Below, in pieces: positions 1,904 to 16,230 of a DNA stretch of 16,274 nucleotides. The stretch is from Candidatus Mcinerneyibacteriota bacterium (GTDB taxonomy: Bacteria; AUK180; JAQVHJ01), in assembly GCA_030630935.1 (NCBI GenBank), contig DAOVMD010000017.1, positions 1 to 16,274 on the forward strand. The letters run 5' to 3'. The stretch's first letter is position 1; the number at the start of each line of letters is the position of its first letter. The position numbers were made by a program, and so were the translations under genes. The notes under the pieces are model-generated. The model did not search any database. It worked only from the letters and a program-made list of their open reading frames with translations, and was not told where the DNA came from.

Positions 1904-2782
1904 ATGTTAAGAAGCTTGAAAAAGAGATTAAAAAAAGAATCAGCATATTACCTCATGCTTTTTTTAATATATATAGGCTCTTTAATTCCACGGAGTTTGG
2001 TATTACCACTTGGAAAATTAATAGGTTTTGCTGCTTATAAACTTCTACCTAAGCCACGACGTAAGGCACTAAAGAATTTAAATTCTGCTATTGGAATGAA
2101 ATTTAATGCTGAAGAAATCCATGAAATATGTAGAAGGAATTTCGAACATTGGGCAATTTCGCTATTTGAAGTGATTGGTTTGTTAAAAGTTAAAACAGTG
2201 CAGGACCTTAATTCAAAAGTAAAGGTGCGTAACCTGGAATTATTAAATGAATCATTGAAAGATGGAAAGGGAGTAATTCTTTTAACCCCTCATCTTGGAA
2301 ATTGGGAGATTGCTGCAGCTTACTTATCGTTAATGGGCTATAAATTTGCGGTTCTTGCAAAGGAAGTCTATGATTTAAGGCTAAATAGTATACTTCTGAA
2401 GATTAGAGGTGGACGAAAAATTGTCAATATTCCAAGAGATTCCATCTTCACAGCGGTAAAGTATTTAAAAACCGGATATATTTTAGGTATTTTACCTGAC
2501 CAGGCAACTAATGTAAGTGGAATTTATATTAATTTTTTCCATAAACCGGCATATACTCCGATTGGTCCTGCAAAACTTTCTATAAAAACTAAGATCCCGA
2601 TGTTACTATTTTATAACTATCGAGATGCTGGAGGAAAAATCAATATTGTTTTTGATTCTATACTTGAAAATTATTCTAATGAAGAAGAATTAACCTTAAA
2701 ATGGTCCAGGAAATTTGAAGAATATATCTTGAGGTTTCCTGAACAATGGGTCTGGCTGCATGATCGCTGGAAAAAGATTTAA
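1904..2782 (+). CDS. lpxL: Lysophospholipid/lipid A acyltransferase, LpxL (HtrB) family
   Basis: The family transfers a secondary acyl chain to the Kdo-lipid A precursor at the inner face of the inner membrane. The 292 residues begin with a basic segment and a hydrophobic anchor (about 16-46). The catalytic H-x4-E motif is HLGNWE (H130, E135), followed by PDQ (198-200) and the C-terminal [13 protein letters not shown], which is strongly typical of LpxL/LpxM proteins. It starts 2 nt after kdsC and its end overlaps lptC by 23 nt, so it belongs to the LPS part of the operon; in E. coli this gene is not in the kds-lpt block. The family is certain; the LpxL rather than LpxM assignment, and which acyl position is modified, is inferred. 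The symbol is provisional. Confidence 0.88.
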   Translation: MLRSLKKRLKKESAYYLMLFLIYIGSLIPRSLVLPLGKLIGFAAYKLLPKPRRKALKNLNSAIGMKFNAEEIHEICRRNFEHWAISLFEVIGLLKVKTVQDLNSKVKVRNLELLNESLKDGKGVILLTPHLGNWEIAAAYLSLMGYKFAVLAKEVYDLRLNSILLKIRGGRKIVNIPRDSIFTAVKYLKTGYILGILPDQATNVSGIYINFFHKPAYTPIGPAKLSIKTKIPMLLFYNYRDAGGKINIVFDSILENYSNEEELTLKWSRKFEEYILRFPEQWVWLHDRWKKI

Positions 2783-3368
2783 ACTTATTTTACTTTTTTC
2801 TCTTATTGTATTCATTTCATCCGGGTGTGGAGATATTGGTTTAGATGAACCATTCCGGGACGATTTAAAGGAAATAGATTATCAGATTTCTGGTTTTGAA
2901 CTGAAATATTATAAATTTGGTGAATTAAGTTGGATTTTCTGTGCTGATACAGTTGTTGTCCCAATAAGTGAAGAATTTGATTCCAAAGAAGATACAAGAG
3001 TTTTTTCTATTGATAAAGGTTTTAATTCAGCAGAAGTTGTTGAGATTAGTTTTTTTAAAAATGAAAAGCTTACATCAAAGTTATATGCTGATCGAGGGGA
3101 ATATTATGTTCTAAGCGGCAACCTGATTGCTGAAGGGAATGTCGTTGTCGAATCAGCTGATAAAGATAAATTGCTTACATCAAAACTATGGTGGATGGAA
3201 TTTGTCGAGCAGTTCTGGACAGATCGTGAAGTTGAGATTATCAGGCTTAAAGATAACTCCAAAATTAGAGGAGTTAGATTAAAATCTGATCGCATGTTAA
3301 AAGATGTCAGAATTGATAAGCATATTGAAACAGTTATTTACAAACCAAAAGAGAAAGCAAATGAATGA
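2760..3368 (+). CDS. lptC: LPS export protein LptC, lipoprotein-type
   Basis: LptC joins the LptBFG transporter in the inner membrane to the periplasmic bridge that carries LPS to the outer membrane. The 202-residue protein has a basic n-region (K5, R6, K8), a hydrophobic core and SSGC ending at C23, a lipobox-like site though with Ser rather than Leu at -3. E. coli LptC keeps an uncleaved TM anchor instead. The rest is beta-rich, with the usual progression: [20 protein letters not shown], then [13 protein letters not shown], then LLTSKLWW and a final [13 protein letters not shown]. The gene overlaps lpxL by 23 nt and lptB by 8 nt. No lptA lies between it and lptB. It is recognised by its repeat pattern and context; sequence identity in this family is always low. 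Confidence 0.85.
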
Positions 3369-4110
3369 TAAAGCCAATATTGAGCCCAAACAACATTTAA
3401 GAACCGAAGGTCTTGTTAAGGTTTACGATAAGAGGCAAGTGGTAAGCAATGTCAGCATTGACGTATTTAGTGGTGAGGTAGTGGGGCTACTAGGACCAAA
3501 TGGTGCTGGAAAAACGACAACTTTTTATATGGTGGTGGGATTAATCAAGCCTTTGTCCGGGAAAATATTTTTTAATGAGAAAGATATTACAGGTCTCCCA
3601 ATGTATAAGCGTGCACAGATTGGTATTGGTTATTTACCTCAGGAATCATCAATATTCCGCAAGTTATCCGTTGAAGATAATATACTTGCGATACTTGAGA
3701 TGCTTCCGTTAACAGCGCAAGAGCGAATGATTCGTCTTGAGGACTTGCTTCAGGAACTTAAAATTAATCATGTAAGGAAGAGTAAAGGTTATATGTTATC
3801 AGGCGGAGAACGCCGGAGAGCAGAGATCACTCGTACTCTGGTTACATCGCCTTCCTTTATTCTTTTAGACGAGCCATTTGCGGGTGTTGACCCGATTGCG
3901 GTTTTAGATATTCAGGATATTATTAGTGAGCTTAGGAAAAAGGGAATAGGTATATTAATTACAGACCATAATGTACGCGAGACGCTTGAGATAACAGATA
4001 GATCATATATTATGAATGAAGGTCAAATTCTTGTTTCAGGTTCAAAAGCAAAGATAATTGACGATCCTATTGCACGTAAGATTTATTTAGGTGAGAAATT
4101 TACAATGTAA
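3361..4110 (+). CDS. lptB: LPS export ABC transporter ATPase LptB
   Basis: This cytoplasmic ATPase dimer powers extraction of LPS from the inner membrane with LptF and LptG. Its 249 residues form one ABC domain: Walker A GPNGAGKT (45-52), Q-loop Q94 in GYLPQE, signature LSGGE (146-150), Walker B FILLDEP (166-172) with catalytic E171, and switch H203 in TDHNV. FAGVDP after Walker B and the short C-terminal tail are typical of LptB rather than of amino-acid ABC ATPases. I start it at ATG 3361, which gives the usual length and an 8-nt overlap with lptC; the in-frame ATG at 3304 would add 19 residues lying wholly within lptC and matching nothing expected. The lptF and lptG genes are not in the window, as is common. 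Confidence 0.95.
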
Positions 4111-4122
4111 GCCGGAGTTAAT

Positions 4123-5550
4123 ATGGCAAAAAAGCAGAATTTAAATTTACGCATTACTCAGAAGTTAGATCAAAGAATTGCACCCATGCTGATTCAAACT
4201 ATGAAGATTCTTCAACTTTCAACTGTTGAATTAGTTGAGCATATTCAGGAGGAGTTGGAATCTAATCCGTTTATTGAGGTTATTGACACTAGGGAAGATA
4301 ATGAAGAAGTCAAACCAATGAAGGAAGAGATGGAGAATAAGTTCCCGATTAATATTGATTGGATGGAAGATTACTTTCATAAATCCCAGGATATTCGTTA
4401 TTTTCAACCTGATGAATATGACAGCAGCTTTTATGAGAATGTACTTACTGAAACTCCTAGTTTACAGGAGCATTTAATTTGGCAATTACGCTTGTTCACT
4501 TCTGATGACCGAATTCTCAAGATCGCAGATTTCTTAATCTGGAATATTACGGAAGACGGTTTTCTTCAAATGTCAAACTATGAAATATTGGAATATTTAA
4601 AGGCTGATGTTCCGGAAATCACGATAGAAGAGATTGAAAAGATAATTAAGTTAGTTCAGGGATTTGAACCTTATGGTATTTGTGCGAGGAATGTTCAAGA
4701 ATCGCTTCAAATTCAATTGACTTTTATTGGACTTAAAGATTCTTGGGCATATCAGATTGTCGCAGAATATTATAGTTACTTAATTTCCAATAAGGTAAAT
4801 GAGGTAGCAGGATTATTAAATATTACAGAAGAAGCATTGAAGAAGGCAGTTGATATAATCTCCACCCTGGAGCCTTCACCCGGCAGGGAATATACGGATG
4901 AAGCACCAACCTATGTGATCCCGGATGTAATAATTCAGAATGTAGAGAATAAATATGAAATCATTTTGAATGAAAAAGATATCCCGCCGATTCGTATTTC
5001 TCCTTTTTATAGGAAGATTTTATTTGAAAAGAAGGAAGGAAATATGAATTCTGAACAGAAGGAATATATCTATACTAAGTTAAATAATGCACTTCTTTTA
5101 CTAAAGGGAATAGATCAGCGGCGGAAGACATTATGGAAGGTTACTGAAGCGATTTTCAAGATCCAAAAGAATTTTCTCAAAGAAGGCCTTTCATCTATCA
5201 AGCCTCTTACTCTTAAGGAAATTGCGGAGATGATTCAGATGCATGAAGCAACGGTAAGCCGTGTTACCAGGAATAAATATGTTCAGACACCTAAAGGAAT
5301 CTACAGGTTGAAATATTTCTTTTCCAGCAAACTCCAAACAGAAGACGGAGAAGATATCTCTTCAAAAGTGGTTAAAGAGAAGATTAAAGATATAGTTTTT
5401 GATGAACGGAAGATCTCGCCTTTGAGTGACAAAAGGATTGCGGAGAAACTTAATTCCGATTTTGGAATCAAGATTTCTCGTCGAGCAATCACAAAATATC
5501 GAGAACAAATGGGGATATTAGCCTCATATTTAAGAAAGGAAAAACTTTAA
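4123..5550 (+). CDS. rpoN: RNA polymerase sigma-54 factor (RpoN)
   Basis: RpoN directs RNA polymerase to -24/-12 promoters that need ATP-driven enhancer-binding activators. The 475-residue protein has the full architecture: region I (about 8-50) with QTMKILQLSTVELVEHIQEELESNPF-type sequence that contacts activators, an acidic linker (about 52-110), the core-binding region (about 112-300), a helix-turn-helix (LTLKEIAEMIQMHEATVSR, 362-380) and the RpoN box SRRAITKYRE (452-461, consensus ARRTVTKYRE) that reads the -24 element. GGAG (4114-4117) sits five bases before the start. It follows lptB by 12 bp and precedes hpf, the conserved Gram-negative order. No enhancer-binding protein and no convincing -24/-12 site is present in the window. 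Confidence 0.97.
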   Translation: MAKKQNLNLRITQKLDQRIAPMLIQTMKILQLSTVELVEHIQEELESNPFIEVIDTREDNEEVKPMKEEMENKFPINIDWMEDYFHKSQDIRYFQPDEYDSSFYENVLTETPSLQEHLIWQLRLFTSDDRILKIADFLIWNITEDGFLQMSNYEILEYLKADVPEITIEEIEKIIKLVQGFEPYGICARNVQESLQIQLTFIGLKDSWAYQIVAEYYSYLISNKVNEVAGLLNITEEALKKAVDIISTLEPSPGREYTDEAPTYVIPDVIIQNVENKYEIILNEKDIPPIRISPFYRKILFEKKEGNMNSEQKEYIYTKLNNALLLLKGIDQRRKTLWKVTEAIFKIQKNFLKEGLSSIKPLTLKEIAEMIQMHEATVSRVTRNKYVQTPKGIYRLKYFFSSKLQTEDGEDISSKVVKEKIKDIVFDERKISPLSDKRIAEKLNSDFGIKISRRAITKYREQMGILASYLRKEKL

Positions 5551-5563
5551 ATCAGGAGGAATT

Positions 5564-6100
5564 ATGGAGATTAAGATTAATGGTAAAAACTTTGAAATTA
5601 CCCCGGCAATTGGGAATTATGCAGAGAAAAGGTTTGTTAAGCTTACCAAGTACTTTGATGGTTTATTGGAGATTCATATTAATCTCATAAAGGAAGGTAA
5701 GGGCAATCATTTTGCAGCAGAGGTTAGTATTTTTGGTGATGGAGTTGTACTTCATTCTGAAGACCGTCAAGAAGACTTATATCAATCAATTGACATGGTA
5801 GTTGATAAACTTGAAAGACAGCTAAAGAAATATAAAGATAAATTAAAAGTTCGGAAGTCAAAGAGTTCATTACGCGGAGAGATGATAAAGCAAGCCTTTT
5901 CAGAGGAGGAAGAATTTACTTTTGGTAATGATAAGGTTATTTTTGTACCACTTAACACGAAACCAATGAGTACGGAAGAAGCTGTTTTACAATTAAAGAG
6001 TTCAAAGTTATTATTCTTAATGTTTCGGAACATTGATTCAAATAAGCTGAATGTGATTTACAAGAGGAACGATGACGTTTTTGCAATAATAACACCCTAA
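5564..6100 (+). CDS. hpf: Ribosome hibernation-promoting factor, long form
   Basis: Long HPF binds the 30S subunit and pairs 70S ribosomes into inactive 100S dimers in slow growth. Its 178 residues split into the N-terminal ribosome-binding domain (about 1-97, starting MEIKINGKNFEITPAIGNYA), a charged linker (98-122) and the C-terminal dimerisation domain (about 123-178) with KPMSTEEAVLQL, FLMFRN and NVIYKRNDDVFAII. The C-terminal domain marks the long form; enterobacterial HPF, also located beside rpoN, lacks it and needs RMF. An AGGAGG (5554-5559) gives it one of the best ribosome sites in the operon, consistent with high protein demand. It lies 13 bp after rpoN and 9 bp before hprK. Confidence 0.95.
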   Translation: MEIKINGKNFEITPAIGNYAEKRFVKLTKYFDGLLEIHINLIKEGKGNHFAAEVSIFGDGVVLHSEDRQEDLYQSIDMVVDKLERQLKKYKDKLKVRKSKSSLRGEMIKQAFSEEEEFTFGNDKVIFVPLNTKPMSTEEAVLQLKSSKLLFLMFRNIDSNKLNVIYKRNDDVFAIITP

Positions 6101-6109
6101 CTATTTAAT

Positions 6110-7066
6110 ATGGAAACTTCAATGTTTGAATATAGAATTAATGATTTAATTGAGGAGATTAAGGAGACACTTACATTAACGCCCCTAACTCTAGCTTCAG
6201 CCCAGGAAAATCGAATTTTAACACCTGAGTTGATTCAACCTGGTTTAGCACTTGCAGGATATTTTGAGCATTTTTACACTGAGCGAATTCAAGTGTTATC
6301 CAAGATGGAAGTGTCATATTTAAATTCAATTTCAACTCATAAATTAAAGAATGTACTTCGCTTCTTTCAGGATTTTAATATTCCATGTTTAATATTAGCC
6401 GGGGGTACTGTTACTGAGAAGCGGATTATCAGGATATTCAGTAAATTTAAAATTAGTTTATTGGAATCAAATACCAACCTCGACCATACAGTTATGACAT
6501 TATCTATGTTTTTACATGAGCGGTTTGCAAAATCTATCTCATTACATGGTGTTCTGATGGATGTTTTTGGAGTTGGTATTTTAATTACAGGGATGAGCGG
6601 AATAGGAAAGAGTGAATGTGCTCTTGATTTAATTGAACGTCGTCATCGTTTAATTGCTGACGACCTGGTAATTGCGAAGCAGCTTCGCGGAACCCTAGTT
6701 GGAGGTTCAATTGATAGCCCGTTAAAATTTCATTTAGAAGTCCGGGGAGTTGGGATTATAAATGTTAAGAAATTATTCGGAATATGCAGTGTTCTTTCCA
6801 AGAAACGTATTGAAACAATTGTTGAGCTGGTTGAGCCTGAAGATGCTCTTAAAGAGGACAGATCTGGGTTAACACAATTATTTAAGAAGGTTCTTGATAT
6901 TAATATTCCCCTGATTCGCCTCCCAACTTCTTCAGTTAGTAATATTGCAAAAACAATTGAGGTTATTGCAATGAGGTATTTAGGTTATACAATAGAGAAG
7001 GGTAAATTAGAAAATTATAACGAGAAACTCATTGAATTGTTTGAGCAGAAGGATAAGCAATCTTAA
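6110..7066 (+). CDS. hprK: HPr kinase/phosphorylase (HprK)
   Basis: HprK phosphorylates HPr on Ser46 with ATP or PPi and removes the phosphate when Pi is high, so that carbon state controls the PTS. The 318 residues have the HprK N-terminal domain (about 1-130) and the C-terminal kinase domain with Walker A GMSGIGKS (161-168), then ECALDLI and HRLIADD (179-185). The signature EVRGVGIINVKKLFG (210-224) and H146 in LHGV are also present. It sits 9 bp after hpf and 16 bp before EIIA. There is no good ribosome site ahead of ATG 6110; ATG 6122, four codons in and preceded by ggaa (6112-6115), is an alternative start. Its target HPr is encoded in the same operon and keeps Ser46. Confidence 0.94.
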   Translation: METSMFEYRINDLIEEIKETLTLTPLTLASAQENRILTPELIQPGLALAGYFEHFYTERIQVLSKMEVSYLNSISTHKLKNVLRFFQDFNIPCLILAGGTVTEKRIIRIFSKFKISLLESNTNLDHTVMTLSMFLHERFAKSISLHGVLMDVFGVGILITGMSGIGKSECALDLIERRHRLIADDLVIAKQLRGTLVGGSIDSPLKFHLEVRGVGIINVKKLFGICSVLSKKRIETIVELVEPEDALKEDRSGLTQLFKKVLDINIPLIRLPTSSVSNIAKTIEVIAMRYLGYTIEKGKLENYNEKLIELFEQKDKQS

Positions 7067-7082
7067 AATATTAGGTTGATAA

Positions 7083-7496
7083 ATGATTGGAATTATTGTT
7101 GTATCTCATGATGGAGTTGCAGAGGCAATGGTGAAATGCTGTGAAACAATTATTGGTAAATTGGATTGTCTTGAAACCATCTCATTCTTTTCTGATGAGC
7201 ATTTAATTGATCTTGAGAAGAAGTTTGATGTAGCTCTTGATAATTTAAGTGCTTGTAATGGTATTTTAATTTTAATAGATATGTTTGGGGGCAGCCCATC
7301 AAATATTGCGATCAAGAAATTATCCCAGAATCCTGAAATCGAGATTATCAGTGGTTTTAATATTCCCATGCTTCTTGAACTGATCTCCCGGAGTAACCTT
7401 GGTGATGTCAAAGAACTAAAAGAGAAATTATTAAATCGCTCGAAAGCAGGGATAATCGATATTAAAGGTCTTATAAAGGAACGTTTAAAAAAATGA
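7083..7496 (+). CDS. PTS mannose-class EIIA component
   Basis: The EIIA(Man) fold takes phosphate from HPr-His15 and passes it to EIIB. The 137 residues begin MIGIIVVSHDGVAEAM, where H9 matches the phosphorylated histidine (His10 of E. coli ManX), and carry DMFGGSPSN (66-74), the family's TDLFGGTP-type active-site loop. The length is that of a free-standing EIIA rather than an EIIAB fusion. It overlaps the EIIB gene by ATGA (7493-7496), which suggests coupled synthesis of the two cytoplasmic components. Many Deltaproteobacteria keep only EIIA of this class beside hprK in a regulatory PTS; here EIIB, EIIC and EIID are also present, so transport is likely. The substrate cannot be read from the sequence. 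Confidence 0.93.
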   Translation: MIGIIVVSHDGVAEAMVKCCETIIGKLDCLETISFFSDEHLIDLEKKFDVALDNLSACNGILILIDMFGGSPSNIAIKKLSQNPEIEIISGFNIPMLLELISRSNLGDVKELKEKLLNRSKAGIIDIKGLIKERLKK

Positions 7497-7957
7497 TTAT
7501 TTATCGAATAGATGATAGACTGGTTCATGGTCAGGTAATAGTAGGCTGGATAAAAAACCTGGGACTAAAATGGCTATACTTAATAGATAATGAAATAACC
7601 GAGAATCAACAGATGATAATGAGATTAACAGTTCCACAGGAAATAGAGTTTAAGATTTTAAATATTGCAAATGTAAAGGATGAAATAACTCGAGATCTCT
7701 CAGATAAACCGGGAATGATATTAGTGAAATCCCCATCGGAGATTCTTTCTCTCTTAGCAGCAGGAGTTAAAATTAAAAAAGTACATATTGGCGGATTGCA
7801 TTTTAAACCTGGTCGGTCTCAATATTGTGAGTTTATCTTCCTTTCACCAAAAGAAGTAGAAGCAATTCGGGAGATTATCTCTCACGATACTGTTGTTATG
7901 GTTCAATCTTTACCTAGCCGTCGAGAGATTCCGGTTGAGAAATTAATTCAAAAATAA
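7493..7957 (+). CDS. PTS mannose-class EIIB component
   Basis: EIIB takes phosphate from EIIA and donates it to the sugar as it leaves the EIIC/EIID channel. The 154-residue protein opens with the family signature RIDDRLVHGQV (5-15); H12 is the phosphorylated histidine. GWIKNLGLKWLYLIDNE and the downstream VHIGGLHFKPGR region also fit mannose/fructose/sorbose EIIB proteins, and the length is complete. Translation probably follows EIIA through the 4-nt overlap; AAGGA at 7476-7480 is 12 bases upstream. The matching EIIC gene is not next to it but starts about 2.1 kb downstream, after the GH57 gene. Confidence 0.94.
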   Translation: MIIYRIDDRLVHGQVIVGWIKNLGLKWLYLIDNEITENQQMIMRLTVPQEIEFKILNIANVKDEITRDLSDKPGMILVKSPSEILSLLAAGVKIKKVHIGGLHFKPGRSQYCEFIFLSPKEVEAIREIISHDTVVMVQSLPSRREIPVEKLIQK

Positions 7958-7973: not shown

Positions 7974-10094
7974 ATGAATAAGGTATATTTTTTAATGGCT
8001 ATCCATAATCACCAGCCAGTTGGTAACTTTGATCATGTGATAGAAGATTCATATAAGAAATCATACCTGCCGTTTTTAGAAGTATTAGAAAGACATCCGA
8101 AGATAAAAGTAGGTTTTCATTGTTCAGGGATTTTATATGATTGGTTTGAAAACAATCACCCTGAATACTTTAATCTTATTTCAAGACTTATAAGGAATAA
8201 TCAGCTTGAACTTTTAACAGGTGGTTATTATGAACCGATTTTATCAATGATTCCGGATAGAGATAAGGTTGAACAGATAAAATTATTTACAGATTTCATC
8301 AGGCATAAATTTGGAGTTGCTCCAAAGGGTATCTGGTTGACAGAACGAGTTTGGGAACCGGGTTTTGTTCCATTTCTTACAAAGGCAAAGGTCTCCTATA
8401 CGATGGTTGATGAGTATCATTTTAACGCTGCAGGAGTTTCAAGTAAGAATCTATCCGGTTATTATATTACGGAAGATAATAATGAGGCCCTTTCAATTTT
8501 TCCAATTAATAAGAAACTACGATATGCGATTCCGTTTACTCCTGTTAAGGATGTAATTTCAATATTTAAAGAAGTTGCTGAACGTGAAAAAGATGCGATC
8601 CTGGTACTCGGAGATGATGGGGAGAAATTCGGGAGCTGGCCAGGAACATTCCATTCTGTCTATGAAGAGGGTTGGCTTGAAGAGTTCTTTTCAGAACTTG
8701 AGAATAATTATGATTGGTTACAGATGGCGCATTTTTCTGAGGTTTTAGAGAACTTCCAACCCAGTGGAAGAGTCTATCTGCCATCATCAAGTTATTCTGA
8801 AATGATGGAATGGGCCTTGCCTGCGGAGGAGACTTATAATTATAAAAAATTTAGAAAATCAATTAAGAATTCAAAAGAAATGGAGTACGGTTTAAAATTT
8901 ATCACTGGAGGTTTCTGGAGAAATTTCTTAATTAAATACCCAGAATCTAATCAAATGCAGAAGAAAGCAAGTTACATCAGCAGTAAAATACCGGGGACAT
9001 CCTCTACTACAATAAAGAAAGAGTTATTTATGGGAGAATGCAACTGTCCATATTGGCACGGGGTCTTTGGTGGTTTATACTTACCTCATTTAAGAAGTGC
9101 AAACTATGAGCATCTTATTAAAGCTGAATATATGGCTGATCTAAAAAGGATCAAGAATAAAAAGCAGTGGTTAAAACGAAGGATTTTAGATTTTGATTGT
9201 GATGGACATAACGAGATTCTCCTTGAGAACTCAAAGATGAATCTTTATATTTCACCAGCCTATGGCGGAAGTATATTTGAACTCGATTTAAAAGGAGATA
9301 AATATTTTAACCTGATAAATACAATTTCTAGAAAATTAGAAGGCTACCATTTTCAAGTTAAAGAATTAGCAGCTGCGGATAATACGGAAGTCACATCAAT
9401 TCATGATAAAATTAAAGCGAAAGAAACCGGTCTTGACGATTATCTTCATTATGATTGGTATTTACGCCGGTCTCTTTTAGATCATATTTGTGCACTCGAT
9501 ACTGAAATCGGGAATTTTAAAAATTCTGAACACTGGGAGCTTGGAGACTTTATTAAGGAACCTTATAAGTTTGAAGTTAAGAAAGGTAAAAATTATTATA
9601 GAGTTCAAATGAGAAGATTGGGTAACCTCTGGCTTACTGACAGGAATATCCCCTGGCAAATTACTAAAACAGTCGATTTCTTCGCAAATTCCCGCGATAT
9701 AATTGTAAAATATGAAATTGTTAATCTTTCTTCAAGTGATTTTGAGTTTATCTTTGGTTCCGAATTTAATTTTTCACTCATAACAGGGGATAGCCCCGGT
9801 AAATATATTTATTCAGGGAATGATTTAAATAGAATTGCAAGTTTATCTCAAGCGGGTACGGTTAATTCATTGAATCGTTTTGGAATCCTTGACAATGATC
9901 TGGGCATTCAGATTGATTTTAGCTTAAAGGAAGAAATGAACTTGTGGTATTTTCCGATTGAAACCGTTTCACAATCCGAAAATGGGTTTGAACGGGTTTA
10001 TCAGGAAACTTGCATTTTAATAAATAAACAAATGCATCTTCAAGCAGGAGCAACAGCAAATATAAATTTTAATTTTAACCTGAAAACATTTTGA
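7974..10094 (+). CDS. GH57 4-alpha-glucanotransferase / alpha-amylase-type enzyme
   Basis: GH57 enzymes of this subgroup cut alpha-1,4-glucans and transfer the released chain to another glucan. The 706 residues show the GH57 conserved regions in order: HNHQP (11-15), GGYYEP (83-88), WLTERVWEP (121-129) with nucleophile E124, and GDDGEKFGSWPG (213-224) with the acid at D214/D215. CNCPYWHGVFGGLYLPHLR (357-375) and a long beta-rich C-terminal half (about 420-706) are typical of the Thermococcus litoralis 4-alpha-glucanotransferase and Dictyoglomus AmyA type. There is no signal peptide, so the substrate should be cytoplasmic glycogen or maltodextrin. It sits between EIIB (16 bp gap) and EIIC (6 bp gap), an unusual place. 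Transferase versus hydrolase activity cannot be separated by sequence alone. Confidence 0.92.
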   Translation: MNKVYFLMAIHNHQPVGNFDHVIEDSYKKSYLPFLEVLERHPKIKVGFHCSGILYDWFENNHPEYFNLISRLIRNNQLELLTGGYYEPILSMIPDRDKVEQIKLFTDFIRHKFGVAPKGIWLTERVWEPGFVPFLTKAKVSYTMVDEYHFNAAGVSSKNLSGYYITEDNNEALSIFPINKKLRYAIPFTPVKDVISIFKEVAEREKDAILVLGDDGEKFGSWPGTFHSVYEEGWLEEFFSELENNYDWLQMAHFSEVLENFQPSGRVYLPSSSYSEMMEWALPAEETYNYKKFRKSIKNSKEMEYGLKFITGGFWRNFLIKYPESNQMQKKASYISSKIPGTSSTTIKKELFMGECNCPYWHGVFGGLYLPHLRSANYEHLIKAEYMADLKRIKNKKQWLKRRILDFDCDGHNEILLENSKMNLYISPAYGGSIFELDLKGDKYFNLINTISRKLEGYHFQVKELAAADNTEVTSIHDKIKAKETGLDDYLHYDWYLRRSLLDHICALDTEIGNFKNSEHWELGDFIKEPYKFEVKKGKNYYRVQMRRLGNLWLTDRNIPWQITKTVDFFANSRDIIVKYEIVNLSSSDFEFIFGSEFNFSLITGDSPGKYIYSGNDLNRIASLSQAGTVNSLNRFGILDNDLGIQIDFSLKEEMNLWYFPIETVSQSENGFERVYQETCILINKQMHLQAGATANINFNFNLKTF

Positions 10095-10100
10095 GATCAA

Positions 10101-10910
10101 ATGATTTTTAAAGTTCTCCTTGCGGGATTAATATCAGGATTATTTCAACTTGATCAAACGGGAGCATTTCAATTTATGCTTTCAAGGTCAATTATTAGTT
10201 CCACTATTCTCGGTTGGGTTTTAGGCAGCATAATTGGTCAACCGGAATTAGGATTGAGGTATGGTTTCTTGTTTGGGATTTTCTTTGATCTAATTTGGCT
10301 TTTCAGATTACCAATTGGTGCATCCACTCCACCTGATTATCAGATAGGTTCAAGCGTGGCAATCTCAAGCCTTATCCTGGGAATTAGTTTCTTCAACCCA
10401 AAGTTTATTTATATTTATGTATTCATCTGTTTAGTAATGGGTTTTGTATCAGGATACATTGGGGCATGGTTTGATGTTATTATTAGAAGATTAAATATCA
10501 ATATATCCCGAATGAGCAGATATTATTGGAATAAAGGAAAATTTCTAAAATTTAAATCCTTAATGCTATTGGGACTATTTAACTCTTTTGTAAAAGCTTT
10601 TTTAATAACGATTGTATTTTTATTTCTAATCCTTATTCTAAACCCCATTCTAAATTTTATCTTTGAAAATATTCCCGGTTTCATTGTTGAAGGATTTGCA
10701 ATTGTAATATTTTTTATACCGGCATTAGGTTTAATAGTTGTAATAAACCATATAATTAAAGAGAGTACATGGAAAGTCCTTGGCTTAGGTATTGTTACAG
10801 GCGCAATTATCTTCTCTTACTTGAAAGATTTTCATGTGTTTGGTTTCTTAATTATATTATTTTTCTGTATAATCATTTGGGTTAATGTTTTAAAAAAAGA
10901 GAAAGTATGA
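10101..10910 (+). CDS. PTS mannose-class EIIC membrane component
   Basis: EIIC forms the sugar-conducting membrane channel with EIID. The 269 residues are strongly hydrophobic and carry family landmarks: QLDQTGAFQFMLSR (16-29), the segment GWVLG (38-42) and LPIGASTPPD (70-79), the conserved loop of mannose/sorbose EIIC proteins. Several membrane helices follow to the C-terminus. The ribosome site is weak (gaga at 10094-10097), and the gene begins 6 bp after the GH57 stop, so coupling with the upstream gene is likely. It overlaps EIID by ATGA (10907-10910). The N-terminal half is much better conserved than the C-terminal half, but the overall length is normal. Confidence 0.9.
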   Translation: MIFKVLLAGLISGLFQLDQTGAFQFMLSRSIISSTILGWVLGSIIGQPELGLRYGFLFGIFFDLIWLFRLPIGASTPPDYQIGSSVAISSLILGISFFNPKFIYIYVFICLVMGFVSGYIGAWFDVIIRRLNINISRMSRYYWNKGKFLKFKSLMLLGLFNSFVKAFLITIVFLFLILILNPILNFIFENIPGFIVEGFAIVIFFIPALGLIVVINHIIKESTWKVLGLGIVTGAIIFSYLKDFHVFGFLIILFFCIIIWVNVLKKEKV

Positions 10911-11719
10911 CAATTAGGAAGATTGATATATTCCGAACAGGATTAAGAACATTTTTTATTCAATCTCTTTGGAATTATGAAAGCTTGCTCGCTTATGGCA
11001 TCGCTTTTTCTATTTTACCAATCTTAATTAAACTATATTCAAAACGGGATATAATACGAAAAGGAAGAGAGTATCTTTCATACTTTAATTCTCAACCTTA
11101 TCTTGCTGCCTTTATCCTGGGTATGCTGATAAAATTAGAAGAGGATGCAGTAGAAAACTCAATCAATAATAACTCAAAAATCAGTTCTGTAAAAGCCAGT
11201 TATATGGGACCACTCGCAGCAATGGGGGATTCTTTTTTCTGGTGGTGCCTTAAGCCGGCAACCTTAATTATTACAATCTTCCTTGTTATGTATTTTAATG
11301 ATTTCTCTAACGCACTTTTCCTTCTGTCCTTTTTCTTAATATTTTTTAATGCTTTTCATCTTTATTATAGATTTGGAAGTATTAGTTTCGGTTATAAATA
11401 TGGAGAGGATGGGTTGAAGTTTTTTCAAAAATTTAATATGAATTTATTTCAAAAAGTAATGTTCCAGATTACATTTTTTCTTTTAGGTATTTCTATTACA
11501 ATGCTTGTATTGAAATTCCCATTTCCAAAACTAGTAGAGAATATTGAGATATTTAAACATATTGAATTTCAGATTTTCTATGGTATCTCGGTAATATTTT
11601 TATTCTTTATATATAAGTTGAAACGTTCTCCCTTATTGTTAATTTTAACAACTTTAATTATTATATTTATATTTTCATTTTTAAAAGAGAAGAACCTGGT
11701 ATTTTTAAGGATAAATTAA
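10907..11719 (+). CDS. PTS mannose-class EIID membrane component
   Basis: EIID is found only in the mannose-class PTS and forms the permease complex with EIIC. The 270-residue protein carries the diagnostic motifs FFIQSLWNYE (16-25), FNSQPYLAAFILG (60-72) and MGPLAAMGDSFFWWCLKP (100-117). Hydrophobic segments follow in the C-terminal half (about 117-165, 182-203, 220-235 and 242-262). It overlaps EIIC by 4 nt, and its stop codon directly abuts the HPr start. With EIIA, EIIB and EIIC it completes a four-subunit PTS. Nothing in the sequence fixes the sugar; mannose-class systems import hexoses such as glucose and mannose, as well as sorbose and amino sugars. Confidence 0.93.
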   Translation: MTIRKIDIFRTGLRTFFIQSLWNYESLLAYGIAFSILPILIKLYSKRDIIRKGREYLSYFNSQPYLAAFILGMLIKLEEDAVENSINNNSKISSVKASYMGPLAAMGDSFFWWCLKPATLIITIFLVMYFNDFSNALFLLSFFLIFFNAFHLYYRFGSISFGYKYGEDGLKFFQKFNMNLFQKVMFQITFFLLGISITMLVLKFPFPKLVENIEIFKHIEFQIFYGISVIFLFFIYKLKRSPLLLILTTLIIIFIFSFLKEKNLVFLRIN

Positions 11720-11986
11720 ATGAAAGAAGAAACGATTATAATAAAAAATGAATTAGGTTTACATGCCCGTCCAGCTGCGATGTTAGTTAAGCTCTCAACT
11801 TCATTCGACTCAGAAGTTGAGTTGGAAGTGAATGAGATAAAAGTAAATGCAAAAAGTATAATGGGCGTTCTGATGTTGGGCGCTAATCAAGGAACCGAAG
11901 TTATAATAAGAGCAAATGGTGATGACGAAGAACAAGCATTAAAAGAAATTAAACAATTATTTGAAGATGGCTTTGGGGAAAAATAA
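11720..11986 (+). CDS. ptsH: Phosphocarrier protein HPr with Ser46 site
   Basis: HPr carries phosphate from EI to EIIA. The 88-residue protein has LGLHARPA (12-19) with the catalytic H15 and the regulatory segment NAKSIMGVLMLG (43-54), in which S46 is the residue HprK phosphorylates in Gram-positive bacteria and HprK-bearing Proteobacteria. Enterobacterial transport HPr also has a serine here but no HprK; the presence of both in one operon implies working Ser46 control. ATG 11720 directly follows the EIID stop codon, with aagga about eight bases upstream inside EIID. The EI gene starts 14 bp downstream. Confidence 0.96.
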   Translation: MKEETIIIKNELGLHARPAAMLVKLSTSFDSEVELEVNEIKVNAKSIMGVLMLGANQGTEVIIRANGDDEEQALKEIKQLFEDGFGEK

Positions 11987-12000
11987 AAGGAGATAATAAT

Positions 12001-13767
12001 ATGGATTTTGAAATTTTAAAGAACTCAGATGTTCGTTATGGATTGGGAGTTTCTCCTGGGATTGCGATCGGAAGTGTTTTTATTTATGGGAAACCATTTT
12101 TTAAAATTTCATTGCGGAAGATAACAGATGAAAATATCACGGCAGAGATTGCTCGATTTCATCTTGCTCTAAAGCAAGCGAAAGAAGATATTTTAAAAAT
12201 CAAGGGCAAGGTTTCAACCGATTTGGGGGAAAAGTATGCGTTTATTTTTGAAGCACATTCTTTAATTCTTGAAGACCCCAAAATTATTGATAACACAGAG
12301 AAGATAATACGGGAAAATAATTCTTGTGCAGAATATGCTTTTGAGAAAGTTTTAAATGGGATTTTAAAAACGATTGAATTTCTCGATAACGATTATTTAG
12401 CAGAACGTGTGATTGACATAAAGGATGTTGGACAGAAGGTTTTAAATTATTTACTCGAGACAGATATTCCCAATACACTTAGCGAATTACGTATTAGTGC
12501 TTTAATCGTTGCGAGAGATCTTATGCCGGGAGATACAGCTTCTCTTGAAAAGGAGAAGGTAAAAGGTTTAGTAACAGAACTTGGAAGCTATACATCGCAT
12601 ACCGCAATTATAGCGAGAGCAATGGAGATTCCTGCAGTTGTAGGTGTTAAGAACATTAGTACATCACTGCAGTTTGGGGACAAAATTATTCTTGATGGGA
12701 AGAAAGGTTTAGTAATTGTAAACCCATCCGATGAAGTTATCAAACACTATGAAAACCTTCAAAAGAAACATTTAGAGAAGAAAAAGTATCTTCTTTCCTT
12801 TACAAAACTTCCACAAAAAACAGTAGATAATAAAACAATTCATCTTCGTGCAAATATTGAATCTGTAGATGAATTGAAACTTCTTGCCGAATATGGTGCT
12901 CACGGGATTGGACTTTTTAGAACAGAATATTTATTTGCCAGGGGCAGGAAATTTCCGTCAGAAGAAACTCAATTTGAAGTATATAAAAAGACTGCTCAAC
13001 TGAGTAAGGATTATTCTTCTATAATTAGAACATTGGATATTGGCGGTGATAAAATTGATATAATCGAAGGTATGCCGCAGGAGAAGAATCCATTCCTCGG
13101 GTGGCGAGCGATTAGATTCTGCCTTACAAATACGGATATCTTTAAAACTCAATTAAGAGCAATTTTACGTGCCAGTGCATTTGGTAATTTAAAGATAATG
13201 TTTCCAATGATTTCAAGTATTGAGGAGATGACAACTGCCAAAGTAATTATTAAGGAAGTAATGAAAGATCTTTCTGAATCCGGAATTGAATATGATGCAA
13301 ACATTCCTATCGGAACAATGATTGAGATTCCATCAGCGGTTTTAATAGCTGAATCATTGGCAAAGGTCTCCGATTTCTTTTCAATCGGAACAAATGACTT
13401 AATTCAATATACACTTGCTGTGGATAGAGGAAATGAGAGAGTGTCCTATTTATATAATTATCTGCATCCCGCAGTTTTAAAATTGATTAAACAAACTATT
13501 GAAGTTGGTAAGAAAACAAAAACGCCTGTTAGTGTTTGTGGTGAAATGGCCGGCGATCCCGTTGGTGCTCTTTTACTCATTGGATTCGGAGTGAGAGATT
13601 TAAGTTTAAATCCATTTGCAATTCCTATAATTAAGGAAATTATAAAAAATGTAAATTCCGTTGAACTGGAAAAACTAATACAGAACATTACCGATTTTGA
13701 GAGTACTGAGGAGATTGAAGGATTTGTCAGATCGAAATTAAAAGACTACTTTAAAATGATTGATTGA
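12001..13767 (+). CDS. ptsI: PEP-protein phosphotransferase (PTS enzyme I)
   Basis: EI takes phosphate from PEP and gives it to HPr, the entry step of the PTS. The 588 residues have the N-terminal HPr-binding and phospho-His domains (about 14-250) with GSYTSHTAIIAR (195-206), where H200 is phosphorylated, and the C-terminal PEP-binding TIM barrel (about 275-575). The barrel contains GIGLFRTEYLF (302-312), RTLDIGGDK (343-351), SIGTNDLIQYTLAVDR (461-476) and SVCGEMAGDP (511-520) with catalytic C513. There is no N-terminal GAF domain, so it is the sugar-PTS form rather than the nitrogen-PTS EI (PtsP). A strong AGGAG precedes the start by a short spacer. The 14-bp gap from ptsH is the usual ptsHI arrangement. 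Confidence 0.97.
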   Translation: MDFEILKNSDVRYGLGVSPGIAIGSVFIYGKPFFKISLRKITDENITAEIARFHLALKQAKEDILKIKGKVSTDLGEKYAFIFEAHSLILEDPKIIDNTEKIIRENNSCAEYAFEKVLNGILKTIEFLDNDYLAERVIDIKDVGQKVLNYLLETDIPNTLSELRISALIVARDLMPGDTASLEKEKVKGLVTELGSYTSHTAIIARAMEIPAVVGVKNISTSLQFGDKIILDGKKGLVIVNPSDEVIKHYENLQKKHLEKKKYLLSFTKLPQKTVDNKTIHLRANIESVDELKLLAEYGAHGIGLFRTEYLFARGRKFPSEETQFEVYKKTAQLSKDYSSIIRTLDIGGDKIDIIEGMPQEKNPFLGWRAIRFCLTNTDIFKTQLRAILRASAFGNLKIMFPMISSIEEMTTAKVIIKEVMKDLSESGIEYDANIPIGTMIEIPSAVLIAESLAKVSDFFSIGTNDLIQYTLAVDRGNERVSYLYNYLHPAVLKLIKQTIEVGKKTKTPVSVCGEMAGDPVGALLLIGFGVRDLSLNPFAIPIIKEIIKNVNSVELEKLIQNITDFESTEEIEGFVRSKLKDYFKMID

Positions 13768-14614: not shown

Positions 14615-15424
14615 ATGACTGGTAATATAATCGAGGTGATATTACAACCTCTTTCAAATATTTTATTCTACTTTGTAATACTTTCATATTTCATTACATT
14701 CTTATTTACTGTTTTATTTATGATCTCAAAAAAAATATTCTTAGGGGAGATTTCAAATATATTCTTTATTATATCTGCAATACTTCATATTATCCTGGTG
14801 GTGTTATATCTTTTCAAAGGCGGTTTATTTATTTTTGATTCATTATTTAAGGTTTTGTTAATTGTATCGGCTGTTATTGTTGTGATATACATTTTTATTG
14901 AGCTCTTCTACAAAATTAAGATGGGTGGAATATTTATTCTAATGTTTATTCTTGCCGCTTTACTAATCTTGCTGGTTAAACCGGAAATAACATTTAAATT
15001 AACTCCCGAAATCTCTATCTTTAATTCAGTCTTTTATATTCTGCTAATGCTTGGATACTTCATTTTTATTGGAAGTTATATTAATAGCTTTTCAATTTAT
15101 ATCGCTGCTATTGCATACCCGCATATAATTAAAGAAAATATAGAAATATATCTGAAAGCTGCAAAACGATTTGATATCCTTGCAGGATATGGGTTAGGAA
15201 TTTCAATCCTGTCAAGATTTATCATCTTTAATCAAATAGAAATTGTTTTTGTCTGGAAATCAATTATAATTCAATCCCTCTCTGTAATTTTGGGGATTAT
15301 TATAATAAGGTCTGTAAGCCTTTATAAAAAATTACAAAATAAAAAAATTCTCCTCAGATTTTATAAAATTTTAGGAATGATATTCTGGGCTGCAATATTG
15401 TTCCTGAATAATGTGATTATTTAA
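14615..15424 (+). CDS. Eight-TM membrane protein, distantly CcsA/HemX-like
   Basis: I do not firmly recognise this gene. Its 269 residues contain about eight hydrophobic segments (near 16-37, 46-67, 77-99, 104-122, 137-168, 187-206, 210-233, 250-267). The length, helix count and the stretches SVFYILLMLGYFIFIGSY (138-155) and AAKRFDILAGYGLGI (182-196) recall the cytochrome c assembly family (CcsA/ResC and HemX), where a loop rich in Trp follows a similar helix. However, the WGxxWxWD haem-handling motif is absent and only H58 and H170 are possible ligands, so it would be a HemX-like or non-haem relative. It is last in the operon, 12 bp after pssA, with a modest tagg ribosome site. The gene is real; the family assignment is weak. 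Confidence 0.75.
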   Translation: MTGNIIEVILQPLSNILFYFVILSYFITFLFTVLFMISKKIFLGEISNIFFIISAILHIILVVLYLFKGGLFIFDSLFKVLLIVSAVIVVIYIFIELFYKIKMGGIFILMFILAALLILLVKPEITFKLTPEISIFNSVFYILLMLGYFIFIGSYINSFSIYIAAIAYPHIIKENIEIYLKAAKRFDILAGYGLGISILSRFIIFNQIEIVFVWKSIIIQSLSVILGIIIIRSVSLYKKLQNKKILLRFYKILGMIFWAAILFLNNVII

Positions 15425-15837: not shown

Positions 15838-15866
15838 TTGACATTTGAAAAAAACCGTGATATACT
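15838..15866 (+). promoter_or_regulatory. Sigma-70 promoter of the 107-residue gene
   Basis: A consensus -35 box TTGACA (15838-15843) and a -10 box TATACT (15861-15866) are exactly 17 bp apart, a near-ideal sigma-70 promoter. The start point is predicted near 15873, giving a leader of about 34 nt to ATG 15907. Confidence 0.78.
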
Positions 15867-15906: not shown

Positions 15907-16230
15907 ATGAAAGATTATAAAAGATGGGTTTTAAAAGATTCGGAGTTGGAGGAATTGACCACGGTTAAAGTAAGGGATCTGATAGAGCAGTGTTTTTATG
16001 ATGCACAAAAAGAGATTTATATTATTTCAAAGAAGCGTCTTAATGTTCCGTTTGACGATGATAAGGTTCGTCAGAGTATCAAGGCGACAATACGTTTAGC
16101 AATAAATCATGTTAATGGAGATGTGGATAATCCGAGTAAAGAGACCTTATATGAGGTATTGAACATTTTGGAGCAGAAAGCTAGTGTTATGTATTCTAAT
16201 TACCTTGACAGCGGATTGTATCGTAAATAG
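15907..16230 (+). CDS. Small conserved-looking protein of unknown function
   Basis: I cannot name this 107-residue protein. It is charged, largely helical in composition and has no signal peptide, membrane segment, cysteine cluster or clear helix-turn-helix. It resembles, from general memory only, small uncharacterised proteins that start with a WVLKDS-like segment followed by LTxVxxRDLI and contain GDxDNPxKETL; here these are WVLKDSELEEL (7-17), VKVRDLIEQCF (20-30) and GDVDNPSKETL (71-81). The start is well fixed by AGGAG (15897-15901), five bases before the ATG. It has its own strong promoter with an operator-like dyad, so it is a separate transcription unit from the long operon. The stop codon is inside the window, and the downstream neighbour is not visible. 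Confidence 0.8.
   Translation: MKDYKRWVLKDSELEELTTVKVRDLIEQCFYDAQKEIYIISKKRLNVPFDDDKVRQSIKATIRLAINHVNGDVDNPSKETLYEVLNILEQKASVMYSNYLDSGLYRK

Follow-up and report, generated by a model that had tools for sequence, protein, structure and literature searches.

Mannose-class EII genes of the PTS normally lie together, and the question raised by this locus is what a gene for a GH57 alpha-glucan enzyme is doing between EIIB and EIIC in a Candidatus Mcinerneyibacteriota bacterium. In the window, which is the whole stretch of 16,274 nucleotides that was analysed (contig DAOVMD010000017.1), the gene run around the GH57 gene is hprK-EIIA-EIIB-GH57-EIIC-EIID-HPr-EI, with a complete mannose-class PTS. The features that matter here are as follows.

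4123 to 5550, plus strand: rpoN (sigma-54), read from the sequence; homologues recur at the same position in related loci
5564 to 6100, plus strand: hpf, hibernation factor (PF02482, PF16321)
6110 to 7066, plus strand: hprK, HPr kinase/phosphorylase with Walker A lysine 167 (TIGR00679, 276.5 bits over cut-off)
7083 to 7496, plus strand: EIIA, mannose class, phospho-His9 (PF03610)
7493 to 7957, plus strand: EIIB, mannose/sorbose class, phospho-His12 (PF03830; His in 29 of 29 aligned homologues)
7974 to 10094, plus strand: GH57 4-alpha-glucanotransferase-type enzyme (PF03065, PF09094, PF09095; PDB 1K1W, 486 bits), with an active site conserved in alignment
10101 to 10910, plus strand: EIIC, mannose/sorbose class (PF03609, 56.5 bits; cut-off 26.3)
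10907 to 11719, plus strand: EIID, mannose class (PF03613, 132.8 bits)
11720 to 11986, plus strand: HPr, with His15 and Ser46 (PF00381, TIGR01003)
12001 to 13767, plus strand: Enzyme I (EI), phospho-His200 (TIGR01417, 636.6 bits over cut-off)

The insertion that the preliminary description had pointed out was borne out by the ORF coordinates together with the Pfam matches, the GH57 gene being 16 bp from the end of EIIB (7957) and 6 bp from the start of EIIC (10101). Its ORF is complete, from an ATG at 7974 that has GAGG on its 5' side to a TGA at 10092-10094 (706 aa); a start at the in-frame TTG upstream (7962) is less likely. The protein has the domain order PF03065 (GH57), PF09094 (AmyA-A_glucT_m, middle) and PF09095 (AmyA-gluTrfs_C, C-terminal), and its best match of solved structure, and the sole strong one, is the 4-alpha-glucanotransferase of Thermococcus litoralis (486 bits, near full length). 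The catalytic motifs, earlier described as intact with D214 or D215 as the second residue, are indeed so: E124 (nucleophile) and D215 (acid, the second Asp of a DD pair) align with E123 and D214 of the T. litoralis enzyme, and the catalytic Glu and Asp are kept in 39 of 39 aligned homologues. K218 and W121 match the GH57 4-alpha-glucanotransferase fingerprint of Lys at position 23 and an aromatic residue at position 12, as those positions can be mapped from the text and a legend of the published account (PMC6037648). The product is predicted from sequence to be a 4-alpha-glucanotransferase of the GH57 type. It resembles the T. litoralis enzyme (PDB 1K1W/1K1X/1K1Y) in full-length homology, catalytic residues and domain order, but differs from it in setting, the latter being archaeal and encoded by a stand-alone gene. 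The same genome has two more GH57 proteins, on contigs 420 and 227, of which the gene on contig 227 adjoins an amidohydrolase-like gene. To our knowledge, the T. litoralis 4-alpha-glucanotransferase has no link to a PTS.

The PTS around the enzyme is intact. All of its proteins exceed the Pfam cut-offs (EIIA-man, PTSIIB_sorb, EII-Sor, EIID-AGA, PTS-HPr, EI and HPr kinase); IIA, IIB, IIC and IID are all there, with phospho-His in IIA and IIB, and the P-loop of HprK and Ser46 of HPr are those of HprK/HPr-Ser regulation. In all of the 28-39 homologues aligned, the Walker lysine of HprK, Ser46 of HPr and the four phospho-His (EIIA, EIIB, HPr, EI) are conserved, apart from one EI homologue in whose alignment the active-site region is absent owing to a split gene call. 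All components and phosphorylation sites of other mannose-class PTS operons (the E. coli manXYZ type, and the hprK-EIIA-EIIB-EIIC-EIID-HPr-EI type of Gram-negative phyla) are found in the window; what differs is that the EII genes are not contiguous, an enzyme gene parting EIIB from EIIC, which is a trait of gene order and not of the proteins.

The plus-strand run begins with kdsD-like (SIS and CBS domains), kdsC-like, lpxL, lptC and lptB genes, followed by rpoN, hpf and hprK; hpf is the usual neighbour of rpoN-hprK. The ORF calls of lptC and lptB overlap (window 2760-4110), with no separate lptA seen between them. On the 3' side of EI are a gene for a CDP-alcohol phosphatidyltransferase and unnamed ORFs, one of which (14615-15424) encodes a very hydrophobic protein of 269 aa with many likely membrane helices and no Pfam or NCBIfam match. 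Promoter and terminator scans of the region gave numbers like those in shuffled sequences and were uninformative. Of the sigma-70-like sites scanned, the best (15838-15866, 11/12, with TG) lies 5' of an ORF of 107 aa (15907-16230) that matches nothing in Pfam or NCBIfam.

The EIIB-GH57-EIIC order, which the preliminary description proposed to seek in other genomes and which, had it been confined to this assembly, would have counted against the proposal, recurs in several phyla. The order hprK-EIIA-EIIB-GH57-EIIC-EIID, with EI downstream, was present in all seven genomes (seven species) examined of the window's small phylum, and in a second phylum EIIB-GH57-EIIC was found in seven genomes of one family, the GH57 gene being located elsewhere in the other families with a match. 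A scan of named genomes, with one or more of whose phyla either of these two may coincide, added the Elusimicrobiota (AM-2014 bin-1828, two Ruminimicrobiellum and Endomicrobium macrotermitis), Firestonebacteria and the unclassified bacterium Dive96_bin2.216; in FCPU426 and Krumholzibacteriota, EIIB-GH57 is followed by EIID, EIIC not being recognised by the profile used. An EIID gene was present in 92 of 386 genomes sampled across the domain; 80 EIID loci were taken, all outside the window's phylum, and EIIB was also seen in 56. The slot was occupied by GH57 in 16 of these 56 loci, from nine families, and the other 40 had no GH57 among the PTS genes, in which they differ from the window. Gaps around the inserted gene are mostly short overlaps or under 60 bp, and no plasmid copies of the arrangement were found. 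An assembly artefact is ruled out by the recurrence in independent genomes, and since slot and strand recur in so many of these, the order is not due to chance. The gene arrangement is real, recurrent and conserved, and its parts are intact.

Other genes are found inserted at related loci. Many genomes belonging to a single large phylum, as well as Zixibacteria and Bacteroides sp. SM23_62, have a MlaD-like gene that separates hprK from GH57 (loci L074, L084, L097, L100, L118 and L119), and in genome G064 a mlaD-like gene occupies the EIIB-EIIC slot itself (L223:9171-10073). In one family (f172) the EII operon has an insertion of another kind, the gene between EIIC and EIID there encoding a YCF48/PSII_BNR-like protein with a length of about 500 aa (L231:7715-9202, L232:5299-6825).

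Recurrence could also arise if a long, well-expressed operon had picked up GH57 and retained it with no functional link, as would be easier for a gene so common in bacteria (300 of the 386 sampled genomes), and the 40 loci that manage without it are consistent with such hitchhiking. This explanation is improbable, however, given that the slot is always EIIB/EIIC and the strand always that of the PTS genes across several phyla, and that the history of the linkage is not a simple one. The insertion trait must have changed at least five times on well-supported branches of the EII tree, and a single clade of all inserted GH57s was rejected by the AU test (p 0.0002), as it was when linked HPr-type GH57s were added (p 0.009). 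The inserted GH57s not being one clade, the linkage must have a history of repeated gain, of repeated loss, or of the two combined. Within the window's phylum, a replacement of the GH57 gene suggested by one tree was unsupported, one clade fitting at least equally (p 0.76).

An involvement of GH57 in envelope or LPS work would account for the position of the window operon after kdsD, kdsC, lpxL, lptC and lptB, and for that of GH57 after a mlaD gene in another phylum. This is very unlikely: the lpt-rpoN-hprK block is found both with and without GH57, and glycogen genes adjoin some GH57 homologues. We know of no alpha-1,4-glucan step in LPS transport.

The sugar that is imported may be glucose. 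A published account (PMC11257099) treats the mannose-type PTS of Endomicrobiaceae as a putative system of glucose uptake, and the Endomicrobium and Ruminimicrobiellum loci have the same EIIB-GH57-EIIC order as the window; by this indirect analogy, the window PTS would import glucose as well. The text of that study on Endomicrobiaceae does not mention amylase, glucanotransferase or glycogen. No earlier report of the EIIB-GH57-EIIC arrangement was found in the open literature, a body of papers that excludes preprints and most subscription papers, nor do the passages searched in publications about rpoN and about the evolution of the PTS mention it.

If the PTS instead imports something that GH57 processes directly, such as an alpha-linked di- or oligosaccharide phosphate, the enzyme would be unrelated to stored glycogen. 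Its position among EII genes would suit such a role, as would the scores of the window EII proteins against the curated NCBIfam models of EII sugar specificity, all of which are far under cut-off. It is nonetheless a quite unlikely role, in view of the glucose reading for Endomicrobiaceae, the glycogen genes beside non-PTS homologues, and the persistence of GH57 in genomes without EIID. No EIID was found in six genomes (L123; L169 and L177, both Hydrogenedentota; L176, Omnitrophota; G079; G090), some of the EIID-less genomes being incomplete, and in these GH57 adjoins hprK, HPr or EI. An elusimicrobial locus (L128) has the order EIIA-GH57-HPr-EI and an EIID match only below threshold. Because GH57 stays by hprK, HPr or EI where EIID is missing, the evidence favours, though more weakly than it does a joint running of sugar uptake and glycogen turnover, the phosphorelay and sensor (HprK, HPr and EI) over the imported sugar as the partner of GH57.

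The preliminary description had also proposed that the enzyme links PTS uptake to glycogen or maltodextrin storage. The proposal is upheld in part: the link itself is well supported, by the gene order across phyla, by the glycogen-gene neighbours of some non-PTS homologues and by the frequency of glycogen synthase; its glucose-importing component is sustained only indirectly, through the Endomicrobiaceae. Outside PTS operons, some GH57 homologues have glycogen genes beside them: glycogen synthase for L021 and L018, alpha-glucan phosphorylase for L024, a GH57 branching enzyme for L023 and, for L065, a gene that is part GT5-like and part phosphorylase-like. Counting against such a coupling, the genes next to other non-PTS homologues are unrelated, for instance those for S41 peptidases (L049, L051). 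Of the genomes with the insertion, 24 of 26 had a strong match to GT5 glycogen synthase, as did 26 of 35 of those without it, an association in the expected direction but not significant (Fisher p 0.10); independent pairs gave two or three for it and none against, which is too few pairs. The clearest case is within one genus, where the insertion and GT5 occur together in G338, whereas G062 has the PTS, no GH57 anywhere and no GT5. All four PTS genomes without any GH57 (G062, G073, G254 and G388, two of them of one genus) likewise lack GT5. A further point against coupling is that GT35 glycogen phosphorylase occurs in many of the genomes with the insertion but not in every one, and for this lack of uniformity it was rejected as an obligate partner; no GT35 match was found in the window's own genome (80% complete).

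The explanation that is preferred, and that seems reasonably probable from gene order and neighbours, is that the recurrent operon links intracellular alpha-glucan remodelling with sugar uptake by the PTS and with sensing by HprK/HPr. One conserved operon would bring together a complete mannose-class PTS, the HprK/HPr sensing module and a single intracellular alpha-glucan enzyme. The predicted GH57 4-alpha-glucanotransferase would act on glycogen or maltodextrin by lengthening and shortening alpha-1,4 chains, probably those of the cell's own glycogen, and if it is made together with the PTS, then sugar uptake and glycogen turnover would shift jointly. More speculatively, PEP and the phosphorylation state might set the use of glycogen, with an outcome comparable to that of the action of HPr on glycogen phosphorylase in E. 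coli (PMC11046441). The window resembles the E. coli case in tying a PTS phosphocarrier to a glycogen enzyme, but the tie is known from gene linkage alone, and the enzyme belongs to GH57 and not to GT35, the family of E. coli GlgP.

How close the coupling is may be considered at two levels. A serious contender, though rated somewhat short of an even chance, is that a glycogen enzyme is simply made beside a glucose-type PTS, with no PTS protein touching or controlling it. The operon-like spacing is what such co-expression predicts, and a residue signature common to PTS-linked GH57s, which could have marked a docking site, was not found beyond the level of shuffled sequences; yet simple co-expression with uptake leaves unexplained the position of GH57 by hprK, HPr or EI in genomes without EIID. 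It is a more tentative suggestion, close to the EIIA/HPr control raised in the preliminary description, that HPr, HPr(Ser-P), EIIA or EIIB binds GH57, switching glycogen remodelling with the phosphorylation state. If so, there would be a PTS-to-glycogen control circuit in several phyla, separate from the HPr-GlgP circuit of E. coli.

The retention of one slot in several phyla, together with the position of GH57 by HPr, EI or hprK where EIID is lacking, suggests that sugar sensing and the glycogen store are tied to each other. Should the coupling be true, it would provide a testable carbon-storage switch for poorly studied phyla, and the control of glycogen by the PTS would become an answerable question outside E. 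coli.
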